Below, in pieces: positions 1,770 through 64,000 of a stretch of 64,000 nt of DNA. The DNA is taken from the NCBI RefSeq assembly GCF_009905375.1, contig NW_027417582.1, positions 62,001-126,000 of the forward strand, written 5' to 3'. The notes under the pieces are model-generated. The model was not told the origin of the DNA. It saw only the letters and a list, made by a program, of their open reading frames with translations, and made no database searches. Each line of letters begins with the position of its first letter. Positions within the stretch are counted from its first letter, which is position 1. A program made the translations under genes and the position numbers. Origin of the DNA: Apium graveolens (taxonomy: Eukaryota; Streptophyta; Magnoliopsida; Apiales; Apiaceae).

Positions 1770-1880
1770 ATGCCTATCATGAGACTCACAGCCAGGAAAT
1801 GGTTAGGAAACGGCCAGCTGTTCTGTTGGATGTTTGGTGTTGTACCTCAGGTAGATCGAATAAGCTGGATTGGTTTTTAG
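1770..1880 (+). CDS. short LTR ORF, 36 codons (element 1, 5' LTR)
   Basis: The ORF begins MPIMRLTARKWLGNG and stops at TAG 1878-1880. It lies 344 bp before the LTR end. About 40 nt upstream is GCTCATACTTG, the same kind of motif that precedes the short ORFs in the other LTR types of this window. The MRLTARK start shares T-A-R-K with the histone H3 tail and with the ORF at 49747-49815. The 3' LTR copy (10610-10708) keeps the frame despite substitutions. Translation is not shown; the conserved position across LTR families is the only argument for function. Confidence 0.35.
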   Translation: MPIMRLTARKWLGNGQLFCWMFGVVPQVDRISWIGF

Positions 1881-2228: not shown

Positions 2229-2240
2229 TAGTATCAGAGC
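2229..2240 (+). other. primer-binding site, initiator-Met tRNA type (element 1)
   Basis: TAGTATCAGAGC starts 4 nt after the LTR end. It differs by one base from the usual plant chromovirus site TGGTATCAGAGC, which pairs with the 3' end of initiator methionine tRNA. It fixes the plus orientation and the 5' LTR boundary at 2224. Confidence 0.9.
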
Positions 2241-2405: not shown

Positions 2406-3033
2406 TTGTGTCAGGTACCAGTGGAGCCTATGAGGAAGGTTGACCCTGTTGATGATATTATGGCCCCTGAGCGTGACCCTACTCCTGAGTCGAAGGACCC
2501 ACCTATTAATCACTCAGATGACGACCCTACAGAGGATCCCCCAGAGGAGGAGACTGACTTCCCTACCCCTATAGATGATGATATTGAGATGCCCCAGGGC
2601 TATGGCGTAGACTAGACAAACATAGAGATGTACCCTCTCCCAACCATTTACCCTCCTACACCTCACCTAGGGATGCTGAGCCCTTTGCCCTACATTAATG
2701 AGGACGAGTTTGACGAGATGGATGCACAGATCTATGAGGTTCATTACATATCCTCTAGTGACCCCGACTCACCTCTACCACCCAACGACCATACATGTAG
2801 CAGTGTATGACTGGATAGTGCCTCAGCTTAACACTAAGATTACTGCGGCATCTTCCCGCATTGTGGAGCTACGACAAGCGCTAACCGCCGAGAGAGGCAT
2901 CAGGCTAGGATACCCAGGGGACTTTAGAGTTGTTTCCCCGGCCATAGCTCGCAGGGAGATTAATGGGATTGAGCTCCGTACTCGAGTACAGATGAGGATG
3001 GACAGCGATGTGAGGATACATCCTGGTAGTTGA
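2406..3033 (+). pseudogene. acidic Pro-rich leader ORF upstream of gag (element 1)
   Basis: Two overlapping frames follow the primer-binding site. The first (2406-2615) is rich in Asp, Glu and Pro (for example DDDPTEDPPEEETD). The second (2698-3033) ends in a basic, helical-looking stretch. Such acidic leader sequence before the gag core is common in Tekay/Del-type chromoviruses. A stop at 2613-2615 and a frame change near 2810 break it. A similar acidic stretch lies in minus orientation near 61720-62080 in the last element, supporting a family-level leader. No enzymatic domain is seen. Confidence 0.5.
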
Positions 3034-3474
3034 TGCAGAGCTGATGTTGGCAGGAGCGATGAGGAGGGTTTGAGACCTCATGTGCAGTGACAGTGACTGA
3101 GAGACCAGTGACTACTTATGGACCTTGTAAAGGGCTGGGTGACTCGTCACCAATTTTGTTAGGATAGCTAGTAATAGATAGCATTCCTAGCCCTTCAGGG
3201 TACCTGGTGTATGTATTTGTATTTCAGTATTCAAGACCAAGTATTTGATGTATTATATTCAGGAACATGTATGAACTCGGATGGTTATTTTGTCCCCAAT
3301 TATGATATGGGAGACCCTATGATATATATCTAGCAGTTATTAAGAAATTAATGTCCATATTATTGCACTTGATAAAAGCATGCTAGATAATTAATGACAT
3401 GCTTACCTATGAATAAATTAATCCAAATGTAAAATTTTTTGCAACAATATTAACATATTTTCATTATCAGAACG

Positions 3475-4557
3475 ATGCCACCCTGTAGAAAAGGAACCAG
3501 GGCACGGTCCGCAGAATCTGTTAACCAACAACGAAACGAAGCTGAGCACATAATGGATGAGGAAAGTGAAGAAGACCTAGACTATAATGAGTTTGATGAG
3601 GAAGAGTATGTAGAAGAAGAGGCTGAGGATACCCATCAGGGAGGGAATCCCATGAATGAGTTTAAGGAACTTTTAAAGGCCAATATGAACCAACAACCCA
3701 TTCTACCACAGCCGCATATTGCCCAACAGACTGCGGCCACTGCCTTCATGGCATTTAAATCCCTCAAACCCCCAGAGTTTCTAGGATCTGCCGACCCCGC
3801 TGAAATACGGGCCTGGCTCAAAGAAATAGAAAAGTCCTTCGAAATACTAGGTGTGGAAGAACGACACAAGACCATTTTCGCCTCTTACATACTAAAGGGG
3901 GAAGCTAACTACTAGTGGGAGTCCAAATGAAACTTCGAGACTGATGCTGTGATTCCATGGGATAGATTTACCCGATTGTTCTTAGACAAGTATTTCCCTA
4001 GGTTTATGGAGACTCGGATGGAGATTAAGTTTCTAGAGCTGAAACAAAATAAGATGATTGTGGCAGAGTATGAGGCCAAGTTTACTGAATTATCACGGTT
4101 TGTACCTGAGTTTGTGAATACCGAGGAAAAGAAAGCGTGAAGGTTTCAGCTTGGTCTGAAACAGTGGATCAAGAACCGAGTAGCAGTACTAGAACTGACA
4201 GATTATGGCACCTTAGTGCAGAAAGCCTCGATTTCATAGCCAACCCCGTGGCCCAATACCGGATTGTCAGACATGCGGGGAAAGACACCTTAGGAACATG
4301 CACCCAGGCGAGAGCCCCTCTGAAATGCTACCGGTACGACCAAACCGGACACCTTTCCAACAACTGCACCCGACTCATCATGATGTGTTTCCAATGTGGA
4401 AAGTTAGGGCATATGAGGAAGGATTGCCCGACATTAAGGCCCCCAGCCTCGGGGATGAGCAGAGTTGTATCCAACCGGCCCCCATCCGCTAGGACTTTCA
4501 ATATGACCGTTCAGGACACTGTCCGCAACACTGATGTGATAGCAGGTACCTTCTGTT
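3475..4557 (+). pseudogene. gag of chromovirus element 1 (broken)
   Basis: The start ATG at 3475 opens a basic then acidic N-terminus (MPPCRKGTRARSAES). The retrotransposon gag core follows (FLGSADPAEIRAWLKEIEKSF, then DRFTRLFLDKYFP at about 3960). Nucleocapsid zinc knuckles lie at about 4328-4430. The second, CFQCGKLGHMRKDC, fits CX2CX4HX4C. The first, CYRYDQTGHLSNNC, has lost its second Cys to Tyr. A stop at 3913-3915 replaces a Trp, and a frameshift near 4140 splits the gene. Gag would form the virus-like particle packaging element RNA. It is inactive as it stands. Confidence 0.85.
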
Positions 4558-7473: not shown

Positions 7474-7853
7474 GTGATGATATTTGGAAAGAAAGGGAAG
7501 CTGAGTCCCAGATTCATAGGACCCTTTGAGATTTTGAGGAGAATAGGACCTCTAGCTTACGAGCTCGCCTTGCCTCCTAATCTGCAACAAGTACACAATG
7601 TGTTCCACGTGTCAATGCTAAGGAAATACTATGCCGATACGCACCACATGATAGAGTATGAGCAGGTAGATTACAACCAGGCCTGACCTACTGTTAAGCA
7701 ACCAGTAAGGATAATGGACCAGAAGAACAAGTGCTGAGGAACAAGACTGTGAAGCTGGTTAGAATCTTGTGGACAAATCAAAATGTTGAAGAGTCAACTT
7801 GGGAACTAGAAGATGAAATGAGGAATAGATATCCCCACCTGTTTTCTAATTGA
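7474..7853 (+). pseudogene. integrase C-terminus and chromodomain-like tail (element 1)
   Basis: [18 protein letters not shown] and [14 protein letters not shown] are the conserved integrase C-terminal boxes of plant chromoviruses. After a stop at 7684-7686 and a frame change comes a degraded chromodomain (LRNKTVKLVRILW, then STWELEDEM and RYPHLF, about 7735-7850). In this lineage the chromodomain is thought to steer insertion toward marked chromatin. It identifies the element as a chromovirus, closest in layout to Tekay/Del. Confidence 0.85.
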
Positions 7854-7886: not shown

Positions 7887-10800
7887 TATAATAACTCGAA
7901 TTTTTGTGACTTTGTAAAATGCTTAATGAATAGTAACCCTAACAGACGAGGAAAAACCTTTTAGCCCATACTATGTTGTGCATGAGAAATTGAAGTTTCG
8001 GAGTTGATAACATGATTATACGTACCAAATGAGTGTATGTAAATGCTATTAGTTTTCGAAGAAAACGAACTTTGAAAAATGACTGTATCAGCGAAACATC
8101 AAGGATTTCGGGAATCACAATATAATTAAAAATTTAAAATCCTACCGATTTATATCAAAGAATGATACTTCAAAACATAAAGAATGTATACGCAAGGATT
8201 TACACCGCGAACCGTTTACAGGAAATTATTACAAAAATGAATAAGCGATCGAGCAAACGCGTAAATGAATAAATAAACGTATCGAACCAAACTAACTAAA
8301 CTAACTAACCATGATAAGAAACTAACCATGGCTAGGTTACCAAATAATAACTTAAACTAGGAAGCATGATGACCTAAAGCTAGGAATAGTAAAGCTAAAA
8401 CCTAAACTAGATAGTTAGCTTGTAAACCTAGGAAGCTAGCAAGATATGTCCCAAGATATGCCAAGATTTGCTAGTCGTATGATATATACTAGAAGATATA
8501 GAAATCATATAATACAATCTTATACAAGAAGCAATCAAGAAGCACAAAATTCTCTCTCCCCCCATTTTCTTTTTCATTCGGCCCAAGTAATAAAAGCAAG
8601 AAAATCAAATTCAAAACTCTCTAATCTAGCCATGGAAAAAATCCACCATTAATTTCCAAGCTTTATACATCCTAAACTAAGGTAAGATAAATTTTTGAGC
8701 CAATTTCATTGAGGTTTAATCGATGAAATAAATTCAAGAAAAGTGATAATGAATAGTATGAATAGTAACTTTAGGAATAGAAATGATCGACTTAAAATAT
8801 TCATAAATCATTAAATTTTTACGGATAGTAGTAAATAGAGTTCCTTAACTGCTATAAAAATTTCAAGTGAAAATAAGGACTTTTCAATTTTATAAAAATA
8901 TTGGAACCAAGACCGCGCGATTAGAAAACCATTAGAAATCATAAGCGGAGCCGACGATGAAAATGTAAACGGACATAAGGTATTTCGAAAAGAAAGCGAC
9001 CGTGACATGAATAAGAAATTAAAGAAATAATAAGGGTAAAGTGAGTGGAGAGAATGAATAATAAGTAGCATGTGTGTATGAGTCGCCGTAAATAAGAACG
9101 GAATCTAACAAAACGGTTTATGTTTATGGTTATAGATTTCCGAGCGGACCCTAGAGCATCCTCCACCTCAAAGTACCTAGGCAAGTTTACGAACACAACT
9201 CCGTATATTGTTGTGTTGTGAAAGGATTAGTTTTACTATCTTTTACATAAATGCCATGCTTGTTATGATGCTAAGAATTTGAGTTTTCGTATAAATAACG
9301 GTTGTGTTACGATGTGTATATGTCATAGAATATTTTAACGCTACCATGAGCATGATGTATAAGACCAAGAGTCGGTTGGAGTTTTAAAACGAAAACCCGG
9401 GAGACATTCCGGAGATGTTTTGGACGATTAAAGTCCGCACTTATTTTATTCCAAAGGACTCGATGTCCACTTTCGAAGTATTAAATACCTCGAATTTATT
9501 TAGAATCATTTTCAAAGATCGTATTCCCTCAACTATATTTTTACGTGAACAACGAATATTATTTCGGTATTTAATTTAATGTAGGAGAAGTATTCTCCAA
9601 TGATTATCCATTTCAAACTCGATTAATTATATTATTAAAGATTAATTAATTATATAAACATAAATTAGATGAGGAATACTATTTCAAATATTTTTTTAAA
9701 ATATAATTATTCGAGGTTTAACTATTTAATAATTATTATTTATTTAATAATTATTTCTTAAATGATTTAATATGATCTAAAAATCATAAAACCCAATTTA
9801 AAATATTTCCTGAATTTCAGAAAATCATTCATATAATTTCAGACCGTCGAAAATTATTATCTCGACATATTTTAAATATTTTTAATATAGTTTCAAAAGA
9901 AACTCCCCACTTATTTATTTATCTGTTGACAACGGTCAACTCACATTATCCTAGTATTTCCTCCAAAAATTCTCGAAAGTACATATATAAATATATATAC
10001 TAGCAACATGAGTTGTGCCTATCAATAAGCTAAATGCTTTGGGAACTCGAGGAGTACGAGTTCTTGGAATATGATAGGATTTTCTAAAGGACAGGGGAGG
10101 GGTAGAGATCCAGTATTTCGTGTATTGGGGAGACTACCAGTATCGTGGGAGACGGTATTATATGTACCTAAGGACCTGCGAAGTGTGTGTATACCCGAAA
10201 TGGGACACATAGCCCGTATGCGGCAAGGGTGATAACCGGAATACGAAGGTGGCATCCTTCTACTAGTAGAAAGGGTTAGTGATTTTTCGTAGTATGATTG
10301 ATCATCGTATGCGGTGGCTCCAGTGAATGTCCTATTCTTCCATTTGAAATTGTGATGCAATACTGTAACCCAAGCCTAGTTGCTGGGTTTACCATTAAGG
10401 TATTTGCAGGATAATAAATCCACTAAAGAATTGTTTTCGAAAGAAGGTGTGTATCATCGAGGAAAACTATTTTTGAAATAAACATATTTATCATATATGG
10501 TATTATATTTGAGTTTATCATACAATCATTTCATATTGTACATTATTATGCTGGGCATTATAGTTCACACTTGTTTTCTTAAATGGACACAACACAACAG
10601 TGAATCAAGATGCCTATCATGAGACTTACATCCAGGAAACGAGTAAGAAATGGCCAGCTGTTCCGTAGGATATTTGGTGATGTACCTCAGGTAGATCGAA
10701 TAAGCTAGATTGGTTGTCAGTTGTTTTTAGTCCGGCTTATTTACAAGTATGACTTATGTATGATAATAAATAAGAAACGGATATTTGGCTGACGGACTAA

Positions 10801-15723: not shown

Positions 15724-15810
15724 TCACACTCTAATAACTTGAGGTGCACGCCTCTTGATAACGCGCTTCTTGCCTACACGAATGATGCGGATATCACTCA
15801 TAACCTTCAT
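15724..15810 (-). CDS. short basic LTR ORF, 28 codons
   Basis: MKVMSDIRIIRVGKKRVI, then more basic residues, ending at TGA. Upstream on the minus strand is GGCTCACACTTG, then a T-rich stretch and the ATG, as in the other LTRs. It ends 255 bp from the LTR 3' end. The resemblance to the H3-like copies is limited to basic content (GKKRV) and position. Confidence 0.3.
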   Translation of the reverse strand: MKVMSDIRIIRVGKKRVIKRRAPQVIRV

Positions 15811-22993: not shown

Positions 22994-23107
22994 ATACCTA
23001 GGAGATTTTTCCGTGGTAGTCAGGGAAGAGTTCCACTTCCTTCCGTGTCAGGCTCCTCTGAGGTAGTTGTGTCAGACAAGAAATGGTCTGTTGAGTTGCT
23101 GTATTAA
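22994..23107 (+). pseudogene. short LTR ORF without ATG (element 3)
   Basis: After ACTCACCCTTGC and GTATTACAG an open frame of 37 codons starts at ATA: IPRRFFRGSQGRVPLPSVSG, ending at TAA. Position (188 bp from the LTR end), the upstream motif and a GRVPLP block (compare GSVPRLP at 45769-45870 and GNVPQFP at 52723-52875) suggest the same short ORF with a lost start codon. Confidence 0.3.
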
Positions 23108-32640: not shown

Positions 32641-34350
32641 GAATAATAATATGAGAAAGAACTTTGAAGATCGTAGGAGGGACCAAGACGATCAGGGACG
32701 GAATCCCCAGCCTAGGGGATCGATTATAAATGTAATCTTTGGAGGACCGCGACCCCGAGGGCCTGTGATAAACACAATTTTTGGAGGACCAACTGCTGCC
32801 GGGTTATATAGGAACTCCAGGAAAGCGTATACCGGAGAGGTTATGCATATTGTTGGGGAAGACCCGAAGAGGGCCAGGACAGAAGTAACAATAGCATTTG
32901 ATGATTCTGACTTAGAGGGTGTGAAATTTCCTCATGACGACCCGCTGGTCATAACACCAATAATAGGGAACAGCCCGGTGAAGAGGGTCCTTGTAGATAA
33001 TGGTGCTTCAGTGGAAATCTTGCTCCATGACACCTTTTTAAGGATGGGTTATAATGATTCCCAATTGACCCCAACCGACATGTCAATATATGGATTTGTG
33101 GGAGTAGAGTACCCCGTGGAAGGGATAATCAAGTTTCCAACAACCATAGGTCAGGAACCAAGGCAAGCAACACAGATGTTGGACTTTATGGTGGTGAAGG
33201 CTAGTTCAACTTACAACGCTATCATGGGAAGAACGGGGATACGTTCCCTCAAGGCAGTCCCTTCTTCCTACCATTTAGTAATGAAGTTTCCCACCCGGAA
33301 TGGGATTGGAGAAGAAAAAGTAGATCAAAAAATGGCTAGAAGTTGTTATGTGGCCTCACTGAGGGCAGATGGAGTTGGGGGGCAGGTTCTTCATATTGAA
33401 GATCTGGATATCCGAGAGAATGAGGAGAAAAGAGGGAAGCCAGCAGAAGACTCGGTTTCGGTTCCTTTAGCCCCCGAGGATCCTGAGAAGGTGACTTTCG
33501 TTGGAGCCACACTAGAGGAGCCCCTTAGAGGGAAGTTGGTGAAATTTTTACAAGAAAATAGTGATGTATTTGCATGGTCAGCAGCTGATATGCCAGGCAC
33601 AGACCCAGAACTGATTACTCACAAGCTGAAAGTGGATCATAATCAGAAGACAGTGAAGCAAAAGAAAAGAAGTTTTGCTCCAGAGAGACAAGAAGCTATA
33701 AAACAAGAAGTGGGGAAGCTCTTAGAGGCTGGTTTTATCGAGGAGATACAATTTTCAGAATGGTTACCAAACCCTGTGATGGTAAAGAAGGCCAATGGAA
33801 AATGGATGATGTGTGTGGACTTCACTGATCTGAATGACGCATGCCCCAAGGACTGTTTCCCATTGCCAAGGATAGATATATTGATAGATGCTACTGCTGA
33901 TCATGAGATGTTGAGCTTCATGGATGGATTCAGTGGATACAATTAGATCAAGATGCACAAGGATGACATCCCAAAGGTATCATTCATCACTGATTTTGGT
34001 GTTTATTGTTATCTTGTTATGGCATTTGGTCTCAAGAATGCAGGAGCCACCTATCAAAGGTTGATAAATAAAATTTTTAAGGATCTTATTTGAAAGACCA
34101 TGGAAGTTTATGTTGATGACATGTTAGTCAAGAGTCTAGTAAAGACTGACCATATAACCCATTTGAGGGAAGCTTTCGAGGTCCTGATATACCGTAAGAT
34201 GATTTTAAATCCTACAAAGTGTGCTTTCGGAGTAGGATCTGGAAAGTTTTTGGGATTGATGGTCTCCAAGAGAGGAATTGAGGCCAATCTCTATAAAATA
34301 AAGGCAATCTTGGACATGGAGCCACCAAAAACTATCAAAGATGTTTAAAA
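32641..34350 (+). pseudogene. protease-reverse transcriptase of Tat-lineage element
   Basis: Protease: VKRVLVDNGASVEIL at about 32980-33025 (DNG, normal for Tat). RT: GFIEEIQFSEWLPNPVMVKK, MCVDFTDLNDACPKDCFPLP, SFMDGFSGYN, then a stop at 33944-33946; next frame LVMAFGLKNAGATYQRLINK, a TGA at about 34092, then VYVDDMLVKS (about 34108-34137) with both catalytic Asp. The DFTDLNDACPKD and VYVDDMLVKS wording is typical of the Tat lineage. A TAA at about 34346 interrupts the connection domain. Confidence 0.9.
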
Positions 34351-41309: not shown

Positions 41310-42108
41310 TCCAAGAACTGTTAGAAATAGGGTAGATGATCCCTGCATCTAGCCACTTGAGAATTTCCTTCTTCAAAACCTCTTTCATGATCGGATTAAG
41401 CCTTCTCTGTTGCTCAACATTCGGCTTGCTTCCTTCCTCTAGCAGAATTTTGTGTATACAACAAGAAGGGTTGATTTCCTTGATATCTGCTATAGTCCAT
41501 CCAATTGCCAATTTGAACTCTCTCAGAATTCTCTAGAGCTTTTCCTCATCACTACCTGAAAGGTCAGATGCAATATTAATAGGCAAAGTAGATGCATCAC
41601 CTAAAAAAGGATACTTTAAGTGTTCGGGCAATGATTTAAGCTCTAATGTAGGAGCTTCCTCAATAAAAGGCTTGAGTCGCCCCTCAGCATTTTTTAGTTC
41701 TGACATTCCAAGAGATTCAAAAGGCATATCCAGCCTTCTCTTCCAAGGAGAAGCATTTAAATATTGCAATTGCCCATCACCTTCTTCATATTCTCTATCT
41801 GTATTCCCCATAAAGGTCTTCTCTAAGGCATCAGACCTTAGCATTTGATCAAGTTCTGAAGTAACCACAGAATCGACCAATTCCACTTTTAACCATTCCT
41901 CGTTTTCAATCAAGAATTTCATGGCATTGAATATATTGAAAGTCACATCCTGATCCAGTACTCGCATGGTAAGCTCACCCTTCTGCACATCTATCAAGGT
42001 TCGGCCAGTAGCCAAGAATGGCCTTCCCAAGATTATGGGAATCTTATTATCCTCCTCGAAATCAAGAATTACAAAGTCTACAGAAAAGATGAGTTTGTCC
42101 ACCTTGAC
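41310..42108 (-). pseudogene. Athila pol: protease C-terminus, linker and RT N-terminus
   Basis: From the right: VDKLIFSVDFVILDFEEDN, IPIILGRPFLATGRTLIDVQ, ELVDSVVTSELDQMLRSDAL, LQYLNASPWKRRLDMPFESL, EAPTLELKSLPEHLKYPFLG, LSGSDEEKL, a stop, IGWTIADIKEINPSCCIHKI and LKWLDAGIIYPISNSSW. The long linker with LxYLxASPWxR is typical of Athila. Apart from one stop at 41533-41535 and a small frame change, most of it is open. It is bounded by the Tat element on the left and a solo LTR on the right. Confidence 0.9.
42104..42108. repeat. target-site duplication TTGAC (left)
   Basis: Repeats exactly at 46160-46164. Confidence 0.93.
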
Positions 42109-44022
42109 TGTAATAACCCCCAAAATTTTCAACTTTTTTGTAACCCTTGTGAATAGTGTTTTAGCTGAATGAGAAAACTTTTCACGCCCCACTATGTAGG
42201 GGTTCTGTTATGGATATTCTGGGATATTATTAGTACTCTATGTGGTATATAAGTGTATGTAAAGATCGTCATAATCCAATTTCCGAACACTTGGATTTTT
42301 CCCGGAAATCCACTAGATACGGAGAGAATTGAGTATAAGGTAACAAGATAAAAAGAATTTAAATTAAAGGATTATAATAGAGGATCATAAAAAGGAATAT
42401 AATGTATTGAGAAAGGTTAAGGGAACCTAAGTAATAAGATCCCGGGTATGATCCTTCAAACGATAAACGAAAACGAAAGTTAAGTGAACTGTATAACAGA
42501 TCAGCGGTCATTAGGCAAACGATTAGGAAGTTAAGCAAAGGGATTAGAGGGAGTGATGTCACCCAACCAATGAGAGGAGGACAAGGAGGGAAAGATGACA
42601 TCACAACATGACATAGGCATGACATGGGAAGGAAGGAGGTGTGGTGGCTTTTTAACCACACAAATTCAAGGGCAACAAGGTAATTAACTAAATCAAACAC
42701 AAAAACAAGTCAACCAAGCCAAGCAAAATCATTTTTCATCAAAATCAAAAAGAACCAAGGCATTGTTCTTGAAGAGCTCTCGGCTTTTTACTATTCAAAA
42801 GGCAAGGAAATTCAAAAATCAAAGATCCAAGCTTCCTAAATTGGTGAGTTAATTCCCTAATCATCTTCATGCTTAGTTAGGGCTATATCATGAGTTTAAG
42901 CCATCAATTCCTTCTCCATCTTCTTCATTTAATCAAAGAAGAAGACTACGAATAGTGTTTTCAAGTTTTTAACTTGAATTTTTTCTTGTTTTCCTTGAAG
43001 ATCCAAGCATTCCTAAGACTTCTCAAAGCTTCTTAAGGCTTCCTAGCTCCTCCCACCACTTCAAGGAAGGTATATCATCTCCAAACCCTAGATTCCTATG
43101 TATTATAAGATGATTTTGATTAGTAGGATGATATTGTAGCTTGATGTTGGTGATTTAGAGTTTGGGATTGAATTGGTATTGAAATGGAATGGTAAATGTT
43201 GTTGTTTTGATTAAAAGAACTTAAGTATGGTTAAAGTTAAGCTTAGGCATAAGTATGAATGTTAAAATTGAATTGGTTGGGGTTGTTATGATGTGATAAG
43301 GATGGATGTTGGTTGTATGTTGGATTTGAGGTTGAATTGGGTTGGTTTTGAATGGTTTAAATTGGGAAATCGCGTAAACATAGCCGTCGTAACGTCCGAT
43401 TTTCTTTAGACTGTTTTTGTGCATAACATTAGGACCCGAGAACCCCCTTCTAGATTATGACCATTGCCATGTTTAGATAGCTCATGTTACGAGCTTCGTT
43501 TTGATATGTAGTTCGTTCGATTCCGATGCACGGTTTAGGAGAAACGACCGTTTCAAGTAACGGCGTTTCGCGAACGAAACTTTTCCCCTCGCCTTACTTT
43601 GAAACATAGGTTAAAGACCAAAAAGGGTTAATTAAGGTATGAAACATTTATGGTAAGTGTGTTAGGCAGTTGGTAAGACACTCGCGAAGGAATCGTCTTA
43701 AAACTCGTAAAGGTTAAATTATTAAAAATGATGGAGCCGAGGGTACTCGAGTGACTTAAGCGAATCAGTAAGCGCAAAACAAGCGTTCGAGTCTAAGTTA
43801 GTTAAAGTATAGATTTACAAGTGACTTTGGTTTAATTCCAACTTGCTTGTTGTTTATAGGTTACCAGACTCATCCCGAGCCTTTTATCACCCCAAGTCGC
43901 CCAGGCAAGTTTTCTACCCGTTATAACTGTTGTTGTGATGAATATATGTATTTGCATTATCTTGCGATAGATGCATGTTGGTTAATTAGCAAATGTTGTT
44001 ATATATTGAAGCATGCTGCTAT

Positions 44023-44024
<2 letters not shown>

Positions 44025-44054
<30 letters not shown>
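44025..44054. repeat. (TA)n microsatellite
   Basis: A run of TA dinucleotides inside the solo LTR. Similar runs occur at about 44216-44234 and 45381-45412, and in the related LTRs near 53440 and 63090. Confidence 0.85.
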
Positions 44055-44056
<2 letters not shown>

Positions 44057-44334
44057 TGCCTGTTTCGTATTCTTTCCATATATAATTGTTGATAATACCT
44101 ATGCTAGAGGATAGCGGTAATTTGCATATACCCTTAGTATAGGGACCCAAAGGTGGAAATATTTTCTAAAACCGGGAGTCGAGGATCCCGAGTAGATTTT
44201 GTATATATGGATATAAATATATATATATATATATACTTATATATATATATGGTCATAGTTTTCAAAACTATTAATCGAATAAGGTTTATTCGATAACTTT
44301 AACTTTATTTTATTATTAAATATTATTTCGAATA

Positions 44335-44580
44335 TTATTCGAAGGCGTATGACTCCTTTATATTAAATGAATATTATTTGAATATTTAATTGAGGATGTA
44401 TGACTCACTTTATTTTATTTAATGAATATTACTTGAATATTCCTCCGAGGACTTATGACTCCTTTTATTTTATTATTTGAATATTATTTGAATATTCATT
44501 CGAGGGCTTATGACTCAGTTTATATTAATTAATGAATATTATTTGAATATTCATTTGAGGATCTATGACTCCGATTATTT
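44335..44580 (+). repeat. ~60-bp AT-rich tandem repeat in solo LTR
   Basis: About four units, each with GAGG(A/G)..TATGACTC followed by TTTAT and (A/T)TGAATATTATTTGAATATT. A shorter array of the same unit is at about 54230-54405 in the related LTR. Confidence 0.75.
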
Positions 44581-45377
44581 GCTGAGATATATTCTTTATT
44601 TTATTAAAGAATAAGGTGTGAATAATCAAACTTATTTTCGATTATTCAAATAAAGATAGTACTTTCATATAAGTATATCTTTGGTTATTTAATACTCATT
44701 TCAAGTATAAGTTTTAATACTTCTAGTTCAATTATTTTATAAAGATTATTCTTTGTGGGAATATTATTTAAATAATAATATTCAGACATTTTCTAAATAT
44801 TCTGGGGACTGATTTACTTCATTAAATCAGCTTTACTCCAAACACTCTTTAAAGTGTTTACGAGTCTTCAAAATGATTTTTAAAAGTGAGAGCGGATCCC
44901 AAAACTCATTTTTATATTTAAGATCTTCTTTTTTAAGGGGATTTAAATACTCGCTCAAAACCTGAGGGATCCGGCTCTGTGGTGTATTTTATATTCGCAA
45001 CACGGTTGCAGTTTTGGTAAATGAATTGATTACTTACCCAATGTTCGGGAAGTAAGTCCATCTATTGAGTCGACATAAGCAACATGGGCTCAGTGGGCGT
45101 CCATAATAGTGTAAGTGGCTCAGTGGGAGTCCATCAAATGCATAAGTGGCTGAGTGGCAGTCCAGCATAAGGTCCTATTGAGACCAGGGTGATGACCAGT
45201 GGGGAATTCGTCTATCTACTAGTAGAAAAGGTTACTTATGGGTATCTTCGCCTGATCAGCAAGATATCTGGTTTATGCCAAATTCTTTTCCTTTTCAAAT
45301 TTATTGGATATTGCAATTCTGTTCATACTTTACATGACAGAGGTTTTCAGGAAATTGTATAAAGAAGATGTATATGT

Positions 45378-45417
<40 letters not shown>

Positions 45418-45768
45418 ACTTAATGAAGTATATCATGACTTCATTTCCTTTAATAAAATTTCAAAGATTTAATCTATTCAAATCTTGTCTTGTAGTCTCA
45501 TCTATGTGATGAACTGTTGAAAACTCTTTATACTTTGAACAGTGGTAGTTCAAGTAGCTTTATAAATGATATAAGTATAGTGAAGTATTTGGTAACTTCA
45601 TCCCTTATTTTTACTTATATCTAGTAAGTAATTATCTTACACTTGGTAAAAGATTTTAGTAAGTATCCATTTAGATACTTATATTATTGTTATCACTATG
45701 TATTATCTTGCGAGCTGTAAGGCTCACTCTTGCTTTATTTCTTCATCACATAACAACAGTTAGGAAAG

Positions 45769-45870
45769 ATGGCCAGACTCCAGCAGACCCAGCGCAAGCG
45801 CGTGGGAAGCGTCCCGCGTCTTCCCGATGATGTTGTAGCTGCTATAGCTGCAGAGGTAGATCTATTGTAG
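45769..45870 (+). CDS. short LTR ORF with histone H3-like start, 33 codons
   Basis: MARLQQTQRKRVGSVPRLPD then an Ala/Val-rich end, stop TAG at 45868-45870, 289 bp before the LTR end. The first 13 residues share eight positions with the histone H3 N-terminus (M-A-R-..-Q-T-.-R-K-..-G). Upstream is GCTCACTCTTGC, a pyrimidine-rich tract and CAACAG, like a 3' splice acceptor. The same layout precedes the ORF at 52723-52875. Function unknown; it may be a chance or relic similarity. Confidence 0.4.
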   Translation: MARLQQTQRKRVGSVPRLPDDVVAAIAAEVDLL

Positions 45871-46159
45871 ATCAGACCATCTACTTTTGAGAATCAATTA
45901 TGTATAATTATAACTTGTGGCAGATAATGGCAATTAACTGTAAATTTATCAAGTAATCGTTTTGGGTTGTAATAACTTTTAAATTGTGGATTCAAAGACT
46001 TGTACTTATTTTCATCTCTGAGACTATAATGGGTTGTGGTGTGTGTGTTAGTGTGGGGTCACAGCATAAGGTTATTTATTATTAATTAAGTGAAGTGATA
46101 TTGTGGAAAGAAAGACCGTGACGACCCGGATCCCCGACCCCGGATCTGGGGGTGTTACA

Positions 46160-46164
46160 TTGAC
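46160..46164. repeat. target-site duplication TTGAC (right)
   Basis: Matches 42104-42108. Confidence 0.93.
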
Positions 46165-49467: not shown

Positions 49468-49746
49468 TGTGACACCCTCAATCTCGGGGTTAGGAAATGA
49501 GGACCCACACAACCTTAAACTAACAATAAATAAGCATAAACCCCGATTAACTAATAACAGGATCTGACAGGATAAAGTTTGAGACAAGATTACAACTACC
49601 AACCATAATATATAAATTACAACCCAAAATAATACCGAATTTACACAATTGATTCCGACTTGGAACCGACAGATAACTCATTATATCTTTACAACTTTCT
49701 GACTAAGCGCTTGCTCACACATATCCTGTACTACCTACTCTGGCAT

Positions 49747-49815
49747 CTAAAAGCCTACAACACGGTAGGGGCCACCAGGTACGCTCTTACGAGCAGTGCG
49801 CCTTAGTCTGGCCAT
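49747..49815 (-). CDS. short LTR ORF with histone H3-like start, 22 codons
   Basis: MARLRRTARKSVPGG then PYRVVGF and TAG. Against the H3 start (M-A-R-T-K-Q-T-A-R-K-S-T-G-G) the residues M-A-R and T-A-R-K-S and a following GG are shared. It ends 279 bp from the LTR 3' end. On the minus strand it is preceded by ACTCATATACTATGC, a T-rich tract and GGCAG. This is the closest H3 match in the window. Translation is unproven. Confidence 0.4.
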   Translation of the reverse strand: MARLRRTARKSVPGGPYRVVGF

Positions 49816-51000: not shown

Positions 51001-52722
51001 GTTATAAAAGATCAATACTCTATCATGGCATCAATAATATCCTCTCTATAAATAATTTATACAAGTAAGCAGAGTTACTTGCCTGAATTTGCTTTCCTGT
51101 TTCACAAGGATTGTACTACTGCCACCCAGTATACCTTTCCCTTTCCTAGTCCGAATGCCTTCATGTTCCGAATCTACAATCCAACAATTAAACCCTAATT
51201 AGATTCTCACTCGATGTTCCCATAACGCTTAACATTTAACCCTTATCGTAAAACCCTTAGAGTATATGTACTCGATCATACTCATATAGTATGATATGCC
51301 ATTCAGTCGTACTTCAAATCAATTAGTCATCGATTCACATAATAAAGTGTACTTATATACTTTAAACTATGTACTTTAGTAAATAACCTCGATTCGCATG
51401 ACTCAATAACAAGCAACTCAGCCCTTTTCTTTTATCAATAATTCGAACCAAAATCAACAAATAAACCAATTAATCCTTAGTAATTGTACATGCATTTACT
51501 GAGTGAAGTCCTTTAATCAAATTAACCTCTTGTACACCTTTAACCACTTGGCTACAATCTCAAAACCTAATCAAAAATCGAACAACGACATGCAATTATT
51601 GAAATCATGTATAAACTTGAGATCAAGCCTTCACTCATCCTTTTACATTATTCTTAACTTATATCTTTACATGCAATGTTATAATTTAACATGTAATTGA
51701 TACTTCATTCAAAGCCAAATCAAAATCATTTTTATAAATCATTTAATCATAAAATTTGGAACCTACAAGGTTGATCTTTCACCTTAGCACACAATTTGAC
51801 TTAATCTCTTAAAATTTCATCCTATAACCTTAGAATTTTCCCAAAATCAACACATGCAATTATCAATTCATTTCTTTAAACCATCAACTATTCTAATTTC
51901 TCAATATTATCCTAGAACAATCATCCACAACCATTTAAGTCAACAAAAATCAACTCAATAACTTTCGAAATCAGAAACCCATTTGGTTTTAAATAAATCA
52001 CCATATGCAAACACCAAAAATAAGTTTGAGAATACTAGAGTTCAGTTGTAACATCATCACTCACCACCAGTTCACCGGAGTTCATCACCGGTGGCGGTGG
52101 CTTCACGGTGGTGCCCCCACTCGGGGTTTCCAACATTAAACCAACAATTTCTACAACAAATATATACATGCAAACACATATCATCATTCTAAATCATTTG
52201 ACAATCAAAACCCTTTTGTTTTCATAAGAACCGAATCAAAACCACCAAAATCCAACTTTGGATTTTTCAAAAACTTTGGAGATAGCAACATGCATCTATA
52301 TATCTAGATAGATGATGCAAACTCTCACATAATCATGGTCTTACAATCTAAAAATGATGAAGAACAAGGGAAAGATTGAAGAGAGAGAGTACCAAGAGTG
52401 AGAGAGAGAGATGAGAGAATGAGAGAAAAGAGAGAGTTCGGGTGAGGAAAAAGAAAGAAAGGGGGTGGGGTGGGGTTTATGTAACACCCCCAAATCCGGG
52501 GTCGGGGATCCGGATTGTCACGAGTTCCATTTCCCTTAATAACACCCAATCTTAATAAATAATCAACTACTCTGTACTGTGACCCCACAATAAACACACA
52601 CACCACAAATTATAGTCTCAGAGATGAATATCCAAAAATAATCACAAGTCGTTTTATTCCACAATTATATGCCAATACACCTTAAAAAGGTTTCTGAATA
52701 AATTTACATTTCTTTTCCATTA

Positions 52723-52875
52723 TTACAATTCATAAATATACTTAATCTGGTACATCAAAAGTTGAAAGCCTAGCCTATTGGTAGTTCCTACCTCAGCTAC
52801 AGCGACATCAACGCCTATAGGAAACTGCGGAACGTTTCCTATCCGCTCGCGAATTGGGAGCTTGGTCCTATTCAT
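52723..52875 (-). CDS. short LTR ORF, 50 codons, MNRTK start (element F, 3' LTR)
   Basis: MNRTKLPIRERIGNVPQFPI, then VDVAVAEVG and a Tyr-rich end. H3-like positions are M-.-R-T-K-...-R-...-G. Upstream is GCTCACCCTTGC, CTTTCTTCTTTC and CATCAG, then 9 nt to the ATG, the same spacing as at 45769. The downstream block VGSVPRLP/IGNVPQFP is shared with that ORF. The right LTR copy (62377-62529) differs by one residue in the first ten (Leu to Ile). Confidence 0.4.
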   Translation of the reverse strand: MNRTKLPIRERIGNVPQFPIGVDVAVAEVGTTNRLGFQLLMYQIKYIYEL

Positions 52876-54229
52876 CTTGTCTATCTGATGTTGTGTGATG
52901 AAAGAAGAAAGCAAGGGTGAGCAACAAGCCCACCAAAATAATATGTATAGTGATTTACAATATATGAGCATTCTCATAGTACTCATGAAAGTCTTGGTCA
53001 AGAAGAAATGAACCAAGTTGATATCTTAACGCGACCAAGTCGCAAAATATTCAGTATATATGTATATATACTTTTCAAAATCTTGGAAGTCCTCTTCCAT
53101 GCATAATATACACAGAGTTCCAGTTTATAACTGTATAAAAATATCATTGCAAGGTGATCTCATATATTTAACCTTGTCTCAACGTTTTTCTGAAAATCTT
53201 TGTCATGCATAAGATAATCATTTACTAGATATAAGTTTAAAAGATGAAGTTACAAGATACTCCAATATACTTATATCCGAATACTACTTGAACTACCACC
53301 GTTCAAGTTATAATCAGTTTCAAAGTTCATCACCCAGATGAGACTATAAGACTTGAATAGATTCAATCTTTGAAATATCATTATAAATAATGAAGTTACG
53401 AGATACTTCATTAAGTCCTGATATATATATCCATATATATATATATATATCTCATACATTTCCAGAAAATCTCTGTCATGTAAAGTATGAACAGAGTTGT
53501 AATATCCAATGAATTTGGAAAGAAAAGAATTTTGGCATAAACCTGATATCTTGCTGATCAGGCAAAGATACCCATTAAGTAACCTTTTCTACTAGTAGAT
53601 GGATGAATCCACCACCGGTCATCACCCTGGCCACATAAGGACCTTGTGCTGGACCGCCACCCGGCCTCTTACGCGTTGATGGACTGCCACCCAGCCACTT
53701 ACACTTTGATAGACCGTACCCCGGCCTGTCGCTTATGCCGACTCAATTAGATGGGCTTACTTCCCGAACGTTGGGTAAGTAATCAATTCATTTGTTTTCT
53801 CAAAACAGCAACCACGTTGCGAATGTAAAATGCACCACAGAGCTGGATCCCCCAGGTTTTGAGCGAGTATTTAAATCCCCTTTGAAAGGAAGATCTTAAA
53901 TATAAAAAATGAGTTTTGGGGTCCACTCTAACTTTAAAAATCATTTTGAAGCCTCGAAAACATTTTTAAGAATGTTTGGACTACTGCTGATTTATTAAAA
54001 TAAATCAGTCCCGATATATTAGAAAATATCTGAATATTATTATTTAAATAATATTCTCATAAAGATAATCCTTATAAAAATAATCGAAGTAGAAGTTTTA
54101 AAACTTATACTTGAAATGGATATTAAATAACCAAAGATATACTTATATGAAAGTACTATCTTTATTTGAATAATCGAAAATAAGTTTGATTATTGACACC
54201 TTATTCTTTAATAAAATAAAGAATATATT

Positions 54230-54405
54230 TCAGTAATAAGCGGAGTCATAATACCTCGAATGAATATTATAAATAATATTCATTAAATAAAATAAAGGAG
54301 TCATACATCCTCAAATGAATATTCAATTAATAATCAATAAATATAATAAACAGAGTCATAAGTCCTCGAATGAATATTCAAATAATATTCATTAAATAAT
54401 ATAAA
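54230..54405 (-). repeat. ~57-bp AT-rich tandem repeat in element F LTR
   Basis: About three units with GAGTCATA..CCTC(A/G)AATGAATATT. It is the homologue of the array at 44335-44580; copy number differs between LTR copies of the family. Confidence 0.7.
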
Positions 54406-56561
54406 GTTATCGAATAAACCTTATTCGATTAATAGTTTTTAAAACTATAACCATATATATAAATATATATATATATATATAATCTACTCGGGATCCTCGA
54501 CTCCCGGTTTTAGAAAAAGTTTTCACCTTTGGGTCCCTATACTAAGGGTATATGCAAATTACCGCTATTCTCTAGCATAGGTATTATCAACTGAACCAAC
54601 AGATATATATGGCAAGAATACGAAACAGGCATGCATATGTACCATATCACATGCTACAATATATCGCAAGAATTTGCTAATAACAAATATGCATTTATCG
54701 CAAGATCATGCATATACACATATACATCACAACAACAGTTATAACGGGTAGAAAACTTGCCTGAGCGACTGGGGGTTACGAATGGCTCGGGACGAGTCTG
54801 GTAACCTATAAGCAACAAGTAAGTTGGAATTAAACCAAAGTCCCTTGTAAATCTATACTCTAACCAACTCAGACTCTACGCTCGTTTTGCGCTTACTGAT
54901 TCTCTTAAGTCACTCGAGTACCCTCGGCTCCACCATTTTTAATAATTTAACCATTACGAGTTTTAAGGCGATTCCTTCGCGAGTGTCTTACCAACTGCCT
55001 ATTACACCTTACATAATTGTTTCATACTCCAATTAGTCCTTTAAGGTCTTTAACCAAGGTTTCAAAGTAAGGCGAGGGGTAATGGTTCGGTCGCGAAACG
55101 CCGTTACTTAAAACGGTCGTTTCTCCTAAACCGTACATCGGAATCAAACGAACTACATATCAAAATGAAGCTCGTAACATGAAATATCTAATCATGGCAA
55201 TGGTCAAAACTTAGCAGTGAGTTCAAGGGTTCTGATGTTAAGAACAAAAACAGTCTACGGTAAATCGGGCATTACGACGGCTATGTTTACACGATTTCCC
55301 AAATTTAAACCATTCCAAAACAACCACCAATCAACCCCAAATCAATCATACAACCAACATCCATCCAAAACACACTCCAACAGCCCCAACAACTCAATAT
55401 TATAAACTTTATACTACCCTCAAACATGAACTAAAAGCTATACTTAAGTTCATTAACCAATAATCAAGATTTACAACTTCAAACTCATTACAAATCCAAC
55501 CACACTCTAAGTATACCAGGATCATGTTCCTCATGAACTATAACAATCAAAACCATTCCTAATACTCAAAAGTAAAGCTAGGGTTTGAAGTTTTATACCT
55601 TCTTGAAGCTTTTAATCAATGAAAGATCCTTGGAATGCCCATGGAAGCCTTGATCTATGCTTAAGCTACCTTGTCCTTACAAATAAAATCAAGAATCAAA
55701 AATTTGTTCTTGAAAGTTACTATTCACCCTAAACTTTTAGGAATTGATTAACTAGGTAAACCTTGGATTCTTGGATTAAACTTATAGCATAACTAAGTTA
55801 TGAATTATGGAAGCTAAAGAAACAAACCTTATACTTTTTGAAGGTGTGTAGCTTGAGTTTTTGAAAAACTCCTCCTTGTTTTTCTTTCAAAAGCCGAGAG
55901 CAAGATGAAGAAGATGAAAAAAATTTGTGTTTTGCTTTGATTTGTTTTGGTTGGTTGTTTTTAGCTTGCTTTTGGTTAATTACCTTTTTAACCATCAACT
56001 TTGTGTGGTTCTAAATCAACCACACCTCCTTCCCCCTCATGGCATGCTTATGTCACATTTGTTATGTCATCATCCCTTACTTGCCCTCTTCTCATTGGTT
56101 GGGTGACATCATCCCCTCTAATCTCTTTGAGTAGCTTCCTAATTGTTTGCCTAATGACCGCTGATCTGTTATACGGTTCGCTTAACTTTCGTTCTCGTTT
56201 CTCGTTTGAGGGATCATACCCGGGATCTTATTACTTGGGTTCCCTTAACCTTTCTCAATACATTATATTCCTTTTATGATCATCTCTTATAATCCTTGAA
56301 TTTAAATCCTTTTAATCATGTTACCTTATACTCAATTCTTTCCGTATCTAGTGGATTTCCGGGAAAAATCAAAGTGTTCGAATTTGGATTCTGACGATCT
56401 TTACATACACTTATTTATTGTATAGAGTACTAATAATATCCCAAAAGATCAATAACAGAACCCTTACATAGTGTGGCATGAAAAGTTTTCTCATTCAATA
56501 TAATCTGCAAAATCACTATTCATAAGGGTTTCAAAAATTTCCAAAAATTGGGGTTATTACA

Positions 56562-56590
56562 GTCTCCCCTCCTTAAAAGGATTCCGTCCC
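56562..56590 (-). other. polypurine tract and end-of-pol box (element F)
   Basis: Minus strand GGGACGGAATCCTTTTAAGG then AGGGGAGAC lies directly before the 3' LTR TGTAATAACC. Confidence 0.85.
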
Positions 56591-57400
56591 GGAATTAGAT
56601 AGAAAATGAATATGGATACTTTCTTAATATTGCACTTTCTAACTCTCGAGTAAATTTTCCCACATTGTGGTTCTTCCATCAAACTCTGAATAGTTTGATA
56701 ACCCTTCTCTTAAGCACTTGTTCCTTTTTATTCTATAACCCTTCCTGGTTGCTCCATATAGGTTACGTCGGGTTGCGTGTCTATGCGCTCATATGCCCCT
56801 ATTTATCTGGCATCCGAATTATACTTCCTTAACATTGATACGTGGAACACGTTATGACTTGCTACATGTTCGGGGGTAGGGCTAGCTCATATGCTAACTT
56901 CCCAAAACGTCTTAATATATCCAAGGGTCCAACAAATTGTAGACTTAGCTTTCCTTTCTTTCTGAACCTCATCAATCCTTTCCAAGGGATACCTATAACA
57001 TTACTAGGTCCCCTATTTCATATTCTTTGTCCTTTTGAGTCAAATCAGCATACCTCTTATGTCCATCTTGGGTTACTACCAGCCGTCCTCTGATTAGATC
57101 TATTATATCCCTGGTCCTTTGGACTACTGCGGGTCCGAGCATCTTGCGCTCTACAACTTCATCCTAACATAAGGGAGATCGACATTGTCTTCCCTCAAGG
57201 ATCTCATAAGGCGATACCTCAATACTGACATATGATCTATTGTCGTAAGAAAACTCAATCCGTGTTAAGTGATCATTCCAATTTCTTTCAAGTCTATTGC
57301 ACAGACTCTCATTATAGCTTTTAGCATTAGAGCTTTTGCTTCTCAATACCCATTCTTTTCGAGTTCGTAATCTCTATTACCTTCCGTTCCTAATATTATA
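56591..57400 (-). pseudogene. integrase C-terminus and chromodomain remnant (element F)
   Basis: Minus-strand text includes NWNDHLTRIEFSYDNRSYVS and SPYEILEGRQCRSPLC (57164-57290; usual EFAYNNSYHASI and PYEALYGRRCRSPL). Further on, at about 56830-57000, there are traces of [18 protein letters not shown] and a decayed [11 protein letters not shown] degraded chromodomain reaches the polypurine tract. Many stops. Confidence 0.75.
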
Positions 57401-60290: not shown

Positions 60291-60299
60291 TCTAAATCT

Positions 60300-60870
60300 G
60301 TTACACTACCTCCATAACCTTGGGATTTACTTTCTCGAAAACAATTGACTGAACTTAAATCAATTTATTATAATCTCTTGCTCCGTGCCTTCCTTGGTCT
60401 TTCACCAGCGGGTGGTCTCTCTCTTAGGTGGGTAAGTGACAAAGACAGTCTTTTGTGATTCGTCAATCATTTAGAATCTCAAATGATTCCTATATTTCCT
60501 TTAGCCAGGCTCTTGCCTCGACTGGGTCAGCTTGTTCCTTGGAACTCTGAGAGCTTAGCAACTTAAAGGTCTTGAAAGAATTTCCTACCGCATTGTTTCC
60601 TCAAGGTGGTGGTTGGGGATAATAGTCTAAGTTCTGTCTAGAAAGGTCCATAAATTGTCGTATAGGAGTGTCGTCTCGGGTCTCCTTTCCTTACTCGACT
60701 TTCTGTTTCCTTAGTATGAAATGTTTCATCCTTCTCCCATACTTGGGGTTATCTTATACATTTTAAATCCTCATTTTCCACTTCATTATGTTATGGGTTC
60801 TTTCTATCTTGATGGCGACCTCCCTGACTATCACGTTCAGGTTTTGCTCTAAATCATATTCCTCAAACTA
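60300..60870 (-). pseudogene. gag core remnant, misplaced (element F)
   Basis: In a minus frame: FKTFKLLSSQSSKEQADPVE, ARAWLKEI, then in other frames SFEIL, MIDESQKTVFVTYPPK and KREITRW, matching the chromovirus gag box ADPVEARAWLKEIEKSFEIL...ERDKTIFATYLLKGEA..WW. It lies downstream of RT-RNase H in the direction of transcription, the reverse of normal order, so the element is rearranged. Confidence 0.65.
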
Positions 60871-61710: not shown

Positions 61711-62117
61711 ACCATGGTCATCAATTCCTTAGTGGTCCTTTATTCATTCTTGTCAGGATCCTTCACGGGATCTTCCTCAGCAACAATCCCTTCTAGGACA
61801 ACATCCTCAACCGCTACATCCTCAATATCAACATCATCTGGTCCTGCGTTAGGACGCTCTATCGGATCTACAATCCGATCTCCAATTAGTAATAAAACAT
61901 CATCGCGCTGTTGCTCCTCAACCTCAGGGTTCGGAGTCCCGCTACCATATATGATAACGAACTACGCTTCTATCACGATATTTATAAGGGTCCCCATAAG
62001 GGTTTTAACTGTCAGTACTACGTTAGGTAGTCCGACTATGAACTTGGCAAGAGTTCTTATTATCTTAGTGAACTTATTATCTTAACGTCACATCATCTCT
62101 GAGGTTTATAACGCTTC
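61711..62117 (-). pseudogene. acidic leader ORF (element F)
   Basis: Minus strand reads acidic text such as NAGPDDVDIEDVAVEDVVLE and EEDPVKDPDKNE, the same character as the element 1 leader at 2406-2615. It starts near the primer-binding site and is joined to the RT end at about 61710. The plus-strand open frame over the same bases (61714-62085, Ser/Thr-rich) is its antisense shadow. Confidence 0.55.
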
Positions 62118-62129: not shown

Positions 62130-62133
62130 CTCT

Positions 62134-64000
62134 TGTAACACCCCCAAATCCGGGGTCAGGGATCCGGGTTGTCACGAGTTCCATTTCCCTTAATAACACC
62201 CAATCTTAATAAACAATCAACTACTCTGTACTGTGACCCCATAATAAACACACACACCACAAGTTATAGTCTCAGAGATGAATATCCAAAAATAATCACA
62301 AGTCGTTTTATTCCACAATTATATGCCAATACACCTTAAAAAGGTTTCTGAATAAATTTACATTTCTTTGCCATTATTACAATTCATAAATATACTTAAT
62401 CTGGTACATCAAAAGTTGAAAGCCTAGCCTATTGGTAGTTCCTACCTCAGCTACAGCGACATCAACGCCTATAGGAAACTGCGGAACGTTTCCTATCCGC
62501 TCGCGAATTGGGATCTTGGTCCTGTTCATCTTGTCTATCTGATGTTGTGTGATGAAAGAAGAAATCAAGGGTGAGCAACAAGCCCACAAAAATAATATGT
62601 ATAGTGATTTACAATATATGAGCATTCTCATAGTACTCATGAAAGTCTTGGTCAAGAAGAAATGAACCAAGTTGATATCTTAACGCGACCAAGTCGCAAA
62701 ATATTCAGTATATATGTATATATATTTTTCAAAATCTTGGAAGTCCTCTTCCATGCATAATATACACAGAGTTCCAGTTTATAACTGTATAAAAATATCT
62801 TTGCAAGGTGATCTCATATATCTAACCTTGTCTCAACATTTTTCTGAAAATCTTTGTCATGCATAAGATAATCATTTACTAGATATAAGTTTAAAAGATG
62901 AAGTTACAAGATACTCCAATATACTTATATCCGAATACTACTTTAACTACCACCGTTCAAGTTATAATCAGTTTCAAAGTTCATCACCCAGATGAGACTA
63001 TAAGACTTGAATAGATTCAATCTTTGAAATATCATTATAAATAATGAAGTTACGAGATACTTCATTAAGTCCTGATATATATATCCATATATATATATAT
63101 ATCTCATACATTTCCAGAAAATCTCTGTCATGTAAAGTATGAACAGAGTTGTAATATTCAATGAATTTGGAAAGAAAAGAATTTTGGCATAAACCTCATA
63201 TCTTGCTGATCAGGCAAAGATACCCATTAAGTAACCTTTTCTACTAGTAGATAAATGAATCCCCCACCGGTCATCACCCTGGCCACATAAGGACCTTGTG
63301 CTGGACCGCCACCCGGCCTCTTACGCGTTGATGGACTGCCACCCAGCCACTTACACTTTGATAGACCGTACCCCGGTCTGTCGCTTATGCCGACTCAATT
63401 AGATGGGCTTACTTCCCGAACGTTGGGTAAGTAATCAATTCATTTGTTTTCTCAAAACAGCAACCACGTTGCGAATGTAAAATGCAACACAGAGCTGGAT
63501 CCCCCAGGTTTTGAGCGAGTATTTAAATCCCCTTTGAAAGGAAGATCTTAAATATAAAAAATGAGTTTTAGGGTCCACTCTAACTTTAAAAATCATTTTG
63601 AAGATTCGAAAACATTTTTAAGAATGTTTGGACTACTGCTGATTTATTAAAATAAATCAGTCCCGATATATTAGAAAATATCTGAATATTATTATTTAAA
63701 TAATATTCTCATAAAGATAATCCTTATAAAAATAATCGAAGTAGAAGTTTTAAAACTTATACTTGAAATGGATATTAAATAACCAAAGATATACTTATAT
63801 GAAAGTACTATCTTTATTTGAATAATCAAAAATAAGTTTGATTATTGACACCTTATTCTTTAATAAAATAAAGAATATATTTCAGTAATAAGCGGAGTCA
63901 TAATACCTCGAATAAATATTATAAATAATATTCATTAAATAAAATAAAGGAGTCATACATCCTCAAATGAATATTCAATTAATAATCAATAAATATAATA
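62134..64000 (-). mobile_element. 5' LTR of element F (partial)
   Basis: Starts on the plus strand TGTAACACCCCCAAATCC and follows 52480 onward with few differences to the window end, so about 2.2 kb of it lie beyond 64000. Confidence 0.93.
62377..62529 (-). CDS. short LTR ORF, 50 codons, MNRTK start (element F, 5' LTR)
   Basis: Copy of 52723-52875 (MNRTKIPIRERIGN...), open over the full 50 codons. Confidence 0.4.
   Translation of the reverse strand: MNRTKIPIRERIGNVPQFPIGVDVAVAEVGTTNRLGFQLLMYQIKYIYEL

Follow-up and report, generated by a model that had tools for sequence, protein, structure and literature searches.

What does a short open reading frame (ORF) in the long terminal repeat (LTR) of a celery retrotransposon encode, when its first codons read like the tail of histone H3? 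The ORF in question, at 45769-45870 (+) and beginning MARLQQTQRKRVG..., lies in a window of 64,000 nucleotides (nt) of Apium graveolens DNA (contig NW_027417582.1, positions 62,001 to 126,000), and a preliminary description of the window took it for a self-contained H3-like peptide. A conserved splice donor and celery gene models make it most likely that the product is instead exon 1 of a longer protein, and we consider it probable that the gene for the acidic "5' additional ORF" (5'aORF) of Tekay chromoviruses has the LTR ORF as its first coding exon. This reading of the sequence draws on a shared motif, an open frame, the conserved donor, a 5'aORF downstream, gene-model junctions (two LTR types) and a start that resembles H3 (four types).

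The LTR and its orientation

Ty3/gypsy elements are nested in the window, and several of them can be assigned to the Tekay chromovirus type because they have chromodomain-like stretches and primer-binding sites adjoining their LTR ends. The LTR that holds the ORF, at 42109..46159 (+) and 4.05 kb long, is a solo copy from a Tekay-type element; it aligns with the LTRs found at 52480 and 62134. Its status as a solo LTR, asserted earlier, is borne out by the finding of both LTR ends and of a 5-bp target duplication (TTGAC, 42104-42108 and 46160-46164) on the two sides; the same evidence excludes a truncated element. The orientation assumed for the ORF is likewise correct, since pol of the matching elements runs on the same strand and primer-binding sites follow the LTR ends. 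This disposes of a candidate antisense placement, suggested by LTR starts of the TGTAACACCC type.

A module shared among LTR types

Eight LTR copies of six types (45769, 49.8k, 52k, 62k, 1770, 10610, 22.9k and 15.7k; the 49.8k copy represents the 49.7k type) were compared, seven copies of five types having an ATG. The module runs, in order, through an inverted repeat, the motif CTCAYnCTTG, pyrimidines, CAACAG, an ATG, a short frame rich in guanine and cytosine (GC) and the donor GAG/GTAG, the slash marking the end of the exon. Its parts in the solo LTR and the equivalents elsewhere are as follows.

45712..45725 (+), short inverted repeat, GAGC..GCTC, that overlaps the CTCAY motif
45723..45732 (+), CTCACTCTTG motif, a start-site region or branch-point-like
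45733..45759 (+), pyrimidine-rich stretch with CAACAG at its end
45769..45855 (+), proposed coding exon of 29 codons with H3-like start, GC 0.61 vs 0.33 in the flanks
45856..45857 (+), putative 5' splice site GAG/GTAGAT, phase 0
1770..1850 (+), equivalent exon in the 5' LTR of element A, 27 codons, CAG/GTAGAT
10610..10690 (+), equivalent exon in the 3' LTR of element A
15739..15810 (-), equivalent ORF, not H3-like, with CAA/GTTATT at the donor place (in frame, chosen by eye)
22994..23062 (+), equivalent frame, open but lacking an in-frame ATG, ending GAG/GTAGTT
49735..49815 (-), equivalent exon starting MARLRRTARKS, two in-frame stops ahead of the donor
52792..52875 (-), equivalent exon in the 3' LTR of the 52-64 kb element, starting MNRTKLP
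62446..62529 (-), equivalent exon in the 5' LTR of the 52-64 kb element

Upstream of the 45769 ORF, GCTCACTCTTGC, the pyrimidine stretch and a CAACAG with its last base at 45759 are all present as first described. The further claim, that the module extends over six LTR types, holds for the excess of the motif, the open frames and the five types with an ATG, and falls short for the 49.7k type, with a partial motif only, and the 22.9k type. Two ORF positions quoted at that time, 49747 and 52723, fall inside the ORFs, whose true ATGs are at 49815 and 52875. The exact motif occurs seven times in the window, six times within the module LTRs, against about 0.75 occurrences expected; the 10610 copy has TTCACACTTG in its place.

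AG/GTAG is found 105-133 nt downstream of the motif in 7 of the 8 copies and 5 of the 6 types, with the GT offset from the motif start at +133 (45769), +126 (49.8k), +130 (52k and 62k), +127 (1770 and 10610) and +105 (22.9k); the 15.7k copy has CAA/GTTATT where the others have AG/GTAG. With AGGTAG occurring 30 times on both strands of the 64 kb, the chance that five of six types would have it in a 30-nt stretch is about 1e-10, a figure to be read with the stretch having been picked after seeing the data and the LTR types being related rather than independent. Where an ATG and AG/GTAG are both present, in six copies of four types, the distance from one to the other is always a multiple of three (87, 84, 84, 81, 81 and 81 nt); the 72 nt of the 15.7k exon are not counted as evidence, its donor having been picked in frame. 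Exon GC ranges from 0.44 to 0.61 in seven copies, compared with 0.33-0.36 in the flanking 600 nt.

The inverted repeat, with perfect arms of 4-6 pairs (G-T allowed), is found in five of the six LTR types checked and not in the 22.9k type, and is weak in each type taken alone (shuffles 0.016-0.11). It is possibly a hairpin at the 5' end of the RNA. Its arms read, for example, TGAGC/GCTCA or TGGGC/GCTCA, and the closing pair is changed in the 49.7k type (TGAGT/ACTCA).

The acidic 5'aORF

Element A, whose 5' LTR ends at 2224, has a sense ORF between that LTR and gag (2415-3097, with gag at 3475), and the element at 52-64 kb has a counterpart on the other strand.

2232..2240 (+), primer-binding-site core TATCAGAGC of element A, within the proposed intron 1851-2414
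2415..3097 (+), acidic 5'aORF of element A, with stops and frame changes interrupting it; its acceptor, ATATTGTGTCAG, ends at 2414, phase 0
3475..3912 (+), gag start of element A
7702..7844 (+), chromodomain-like stretch of element A with one frame break; Tekay chromovirus assignment
61743..61941 (-), acidic 5'aORF in the 52-64 kb element, with its acceptor ending at 61942

No ATG lies between the preceding stop and the acceptor of the element A 5'aORF at 2414. The donor CAG/GTAG (after 1850) and this acceptor are both in phase 0. In the 52-64 kb element, whose LTR exon starts MNRT, the donor that suits the acceptor at 61942 is a later one, GAT/GTACC (after 62408), and not GAG/GTAG. The internal region of that element (52480-64000, minus strand) is rearranged, the 5'aORF being followed directly by a piece of reverse transcriptase/RNase H, with remnants of gag beyond.

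The primer-binding site TATCAGAGC is found also near 23300 and adjoining the LTR end at 62134, and we take it to be complementary to Met tRNA, as in Tekay chromoviruses. The identification of the tRNA follows PMC3605345. Chromodomain-like stretches, as Tekay chromoviruses have at the C-terminus of the integrase, were recognised by a consensus and by tblastn with a piece from the window. They occur also at 26703-26840 and 56732-56604, and the related elements of the window do bear such stretches, as first supposed.

A read-through query of the element A acidic ORF finds four relatives at 57-69% identity. In one celery gene model, P0002, likeness to the acidic ORF starts exactly at the residue after the acceptor, with unrelated sequence before it. 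The predicted structure of the 5'aORF, modelled with 12 sequences, has a mean pLDDT (predicted local distance difference test) of 49 and a helix at 115-154, with about 75 for residues 121-150; this low-confidence model suggests a protein mostly without structure apart from one long helix.

Junctions in celery proteins

A first profile search (29 matches at E <= 0.01) finds celery gene models that open with the 52-kb-type LTR exon and continue into the acidic ORF found at 61941-61743. A profile search with the exons yields, as its best 120 of 138 matches at E <= 10, proteins from 235 candidates; those named by organism among the matches listed are all from Apium graveolens. Among 137 proteins, 33 carry the exon that starts MARL, as in the solo LTR, and 26 the MNRT exon. 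The MARL proteins leave the LTR frame after E29, which is the predicted donor, in 25 of 33 cases (25 of the 29 gene models), and three of these 25 (P0032, P0108 and P0112) join acidic sequence like the 5'aORF. In P0108 and P0112, which have LOC names, that sequence is repetitive and has no convincing match in the window; perhaps it is the 5'aORF that truly pairs with the 45769 family. For the MNRT type, 17 of 26 proteins contain the acidic 5'aORF. Seven of its 18 gene models leave at GAG/GTAG (residues AE), and eight ENA proteins remain in the LTR frame.

These junctions also bear on a regulatory upstream ORF in the leader, one that would tune gag translation only. A short ATG ORF does precede gag and would be met first in unspliced RNA, but the donor is conserved over LTR types and the celery models run on into the 5'aORF; we regard this explanation as improbable.

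Several observations weigh against reading the LTR ORF as exon 1. The protein support spans two of the six LTR types: the exons of the element A, 49.8k, 15.7k and 22.9k types occur in none of the 137 proteins, and no protein, therefore, shows the element A exon joined to its own 5'aORF. Of the 25 MARL models, 22 join the exon to varied sequence that is not recognised as 5'aORF, and five keep V as the next residue, which leaves their junction ambiguous. Eleven of the 18 MNRT models leave the frame farther on than the predicted donor. Ab initio prediction, repeated on near-identical repeats, may have produced the celery models, which are therefore not independent proofs. Among the window copies, 22.9k is open in frame and has the donor with no in-frame ATG, 49.8k is interrupted by two in-frame stops ahead of its donor, and for 15.7k the donor was chosen by eye. 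Finally, between 45769 and 52875 the DNA identity of the exon (50/86, or 0.58) is below that of the leader (56/78, 0.72) and of the LTR that follows (219/298, 0.73), and dN/dS (nonsynonymous over synonymous substitution rate) is 0.55 with dS about 1.0, from one pair with 28 ungapped codons, too small to prove selection.

The identity figures are what would be expected if the module were conserved as nucleotides (a promoter, an R region or an RNA hairpin) and the ORF were its by-product. This, too, seems to us quite unlikely, as the ATG-to-donor distance is a multiple of three in 6 of 6 copies, GC jumps at the exon and peptide similarity is in frame; frame and donor are kept between 45769 and 52875 despite the lower identity of the exon DNA. 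The preliminary description had proposed a dN/dS below 1 as a check on the frame, and the single ratio obtained does fall there, which is suggestive only.

Some of the 22 MARL joins carry host or copia domains (PF00012, PF01019, PF00346 and PF07727, among P0103-P0137). A MARL exon in a solo LTR, with its ATG and donor, is possibly a portable alternative first exon, or else a systematic annotation artefact. Pfam finds no convincing match in the eight proteins searched. P0023 gave a single weak protease match, which was disregarded. Scans of a viral contig collection with the reverse transcriptase piece, the exon pattern and P0001 found no relatives, nor did a scan of a genome contig collection with the exon pattern.

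A proposed course of expression

If the LTR ORF is exon 1 of the 5'aORF gene, transcription would start in the LTR near CTCAYnCTTG, or an upstream leader would be spliced to the CAG; the motif may be a transcription start, or a branch point with its 3' splice site. Use of the CAG as a 3' splice site, suggested earlier, finds little echo in the proteins: at most 2 of the 33 MARL records look spliced near it (P0099 and perhaps P0111, just upstream of the ATG). A TATTAT-like stretch lies about 25 nt upstream of the motif in several LTR types.

The first ATG would open the short basic exon, and the GAG/GTAG donor, about 130 nt past the motif, would be joined over the LTR end and the primer-binding site to the acidic 5'aORF ahead of gag. 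Because the LTR end and the primer-binding site would sit in the intron, the spliced RNA would be mRNA for the accessory protein only; unspliced RNA would serve gag-pol and reverse transcription. We infer from the sequence that the LTR exon is actually spliced and translated, and the accessory protein would presumably act in the nucleus. If the exon is real, pipelines that seek 5'aORFs only between LTR and gag miss the start of the 5'aORF, and solo LTRs carry a portable exon consisting of a promoter plus a start codon.

Likeness to histone H3

The N-terminus of the 45769 ORF is identical to H3 at 8 of 13 positions, as originally noted. Among all 1137 ATG starts in the window with 13 open codons, it ranks first for H3 and 49815 second (also 8/13); 52875 and 62529 rank third and fourth (6/13) and 1770 sixth (6/13). 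The four best LTR copies thus outscore every unrelated ATG in the window, and 1770 is outscored by one. The likeness also exceeds that of shuffled sequence, where the earlier proposal might have failed. Residue shuffles of 45769 and 49815 reach the 13-residue score in 0 of 20,000 trials (the 18-residue fractions are 0.0003 and 0.00005), and twenty Markov windows with 22,074 starts yield one start at 7/13 and none at 8/13. To allow for the kinship among the LTR ORFs, the residue order of H3 was in addition permuted, in the same way for all families: the joint score of five families is reached in 0 of 50,000 permutations, again in none when 45769 is left out, and in a fraction of 0.0006 when both top families are left out. 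Of the five LTR types with an ATG, four are thus H3-like.

Compared with the tails of H4, H2A, H2B, H1, CENH3, SNAG proteins and protamine, H3 is best for seven of eight peptide versions. The 15724 peptide is best with H3 at a negative score, and the 10610 peptide scores higher with the SNAG tail of GFI1. Of the 33 MARL proteins, P0107 has 10/13 identities to H3, P0102 and P0111 have 9/13 and the other 30 have 7 or 8. In PDB, residues 1-22 of P0107 find 29 sequences, all H3 (E from 0.17, alone not significant), and the 49815 exon finds three, all H3 (E 1.4-2.2, alone not significant); searches of PDB with the 33-residue 45769 ORF and with full P0107 (46 residues) find no match. Of the H3 residues, R8 is kept in four families and R2 and K9 in most, while A1, T3, K4, Q5, T6, A7, S10 and G12 are each kept by some family. 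The first 13 exon residues appear less variable than the rest of the exon, which is biased by the search pattern and is not used as support; anchoring the MARL type on the other half of the exon gives the same variation table, from a protein search that used the same words.

An exon that is real with a likeness to H3 that is incidental, its basic start being a nuclear-localisation or nucleic-acid-binding end in which R-K-R is what counts, has in our estimate slightly less than an even chance. In the first 13 positions, all four aligned rows have only Met and, at positions 9-10, R and K in common, and a nuclear location is predicted for 5'aORF proteins from other Tekay elements (PMC11728184). 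The 15.7k ORF is basic yet not H3-like (2/13), and the 10610 copy is weak (4/13); the position of H3K9 holds E instead of lysine in the two 52k-type copies of the window and in 7 of 22 MNRT proteins; and the tests above leave out a large look-elsewhere cost, since any famous peptide could have been matched. Against a merely basic end stand in-register matches from the Met onwards at the non-basic A2, Q6, T7, S11 and G13, the retention of different H3 residues by different LTR types, the preference for H3 over the other tails, and PDB matches that, at E 0.17-2.2, are all H3.

That the H3-like end is a functional mimic, which hooks or decoys an enzyme or reader of the H3 tail, is in our view rather doubtful. 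Removal of Met is expected for starts in Met-Ala and would leave the MARL types with a free end like that of H3. This free N-terminus would copy H3 residues 1-12 and compete with or hook a writer, eraser or reader of the H3 tail, for which an H3K9 methyltransferase, an LSD1-type demethylase or the element's own integrase chromodomain can be guessed; silencing would be countered, or integration steered. Solo LTRs that keep promoter, ATG and donor could pass the H3-like start to neighbouring host genes. Were the H3-like end functional, it would be a histone mimic from a group of plant retrotransposons whose integrase carries a chromodomain, and the long-standing question of the role of the 5'aORF could be tested with a short peptide.

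Relation to known systems

The Tekay 5'aORF, or ORF0, is itself known, from sunflower Tekay 13-2 and from rice Retrosat2, RIRE3 and RIRE8 (PMC11728184, PMC3485330), and additional ORFs in general are treated in PMC7264820. The rice ORF0 evolves fast, in elements with LTRs above 3 kb (PMC3485330), and the sunflower protein is largely disordered with helices (PMC11728184). The celery elements share with these a sense ORF between 5' LTR and gag, and the low-confidence structure model here may resemble the sunflower protein; unlike ORF0 as described in the parts consulted, which mention no LTR exon or intron, coding here appears to begin in the LTR, with an H3-like exon. No LTR-encoded first exon or H3-like end of Tekay 5'aORFs was found in the literature searched, though earlier mention is possible.

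CERV of the Caenorhabditis elegans element Cer1, also of Ty3/gypsy type, is likewise an accessory nuclear protein made from a spliced mRNA; in the part of that source consulted, histone likeness is not described for it, unlike for the celery LTR exon (PMC10309623). SNAG-domain proteins, which recruit LSD1 through a short N-terminus resembling the H3 tail (PMC12612597), offer a parallel to such a mimic, but they are animal transcription factors of different sequence, and the celery likeness is known at the level of sequence. In Ogre, BARE and EVADE, too, splicing gives separate RNAs for separate roles (PMC12786077, PMC6317226); there it concerns gag-pol, whereas the celery case concerns an LTR exon and the 5'aORF.

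Elsewhere in the window, an open frame of 557 amino acids without a Pfam match at E 0.001 lies at 32273-33946 (+), upstream of frames for RNase H and integrase that belong to another element.
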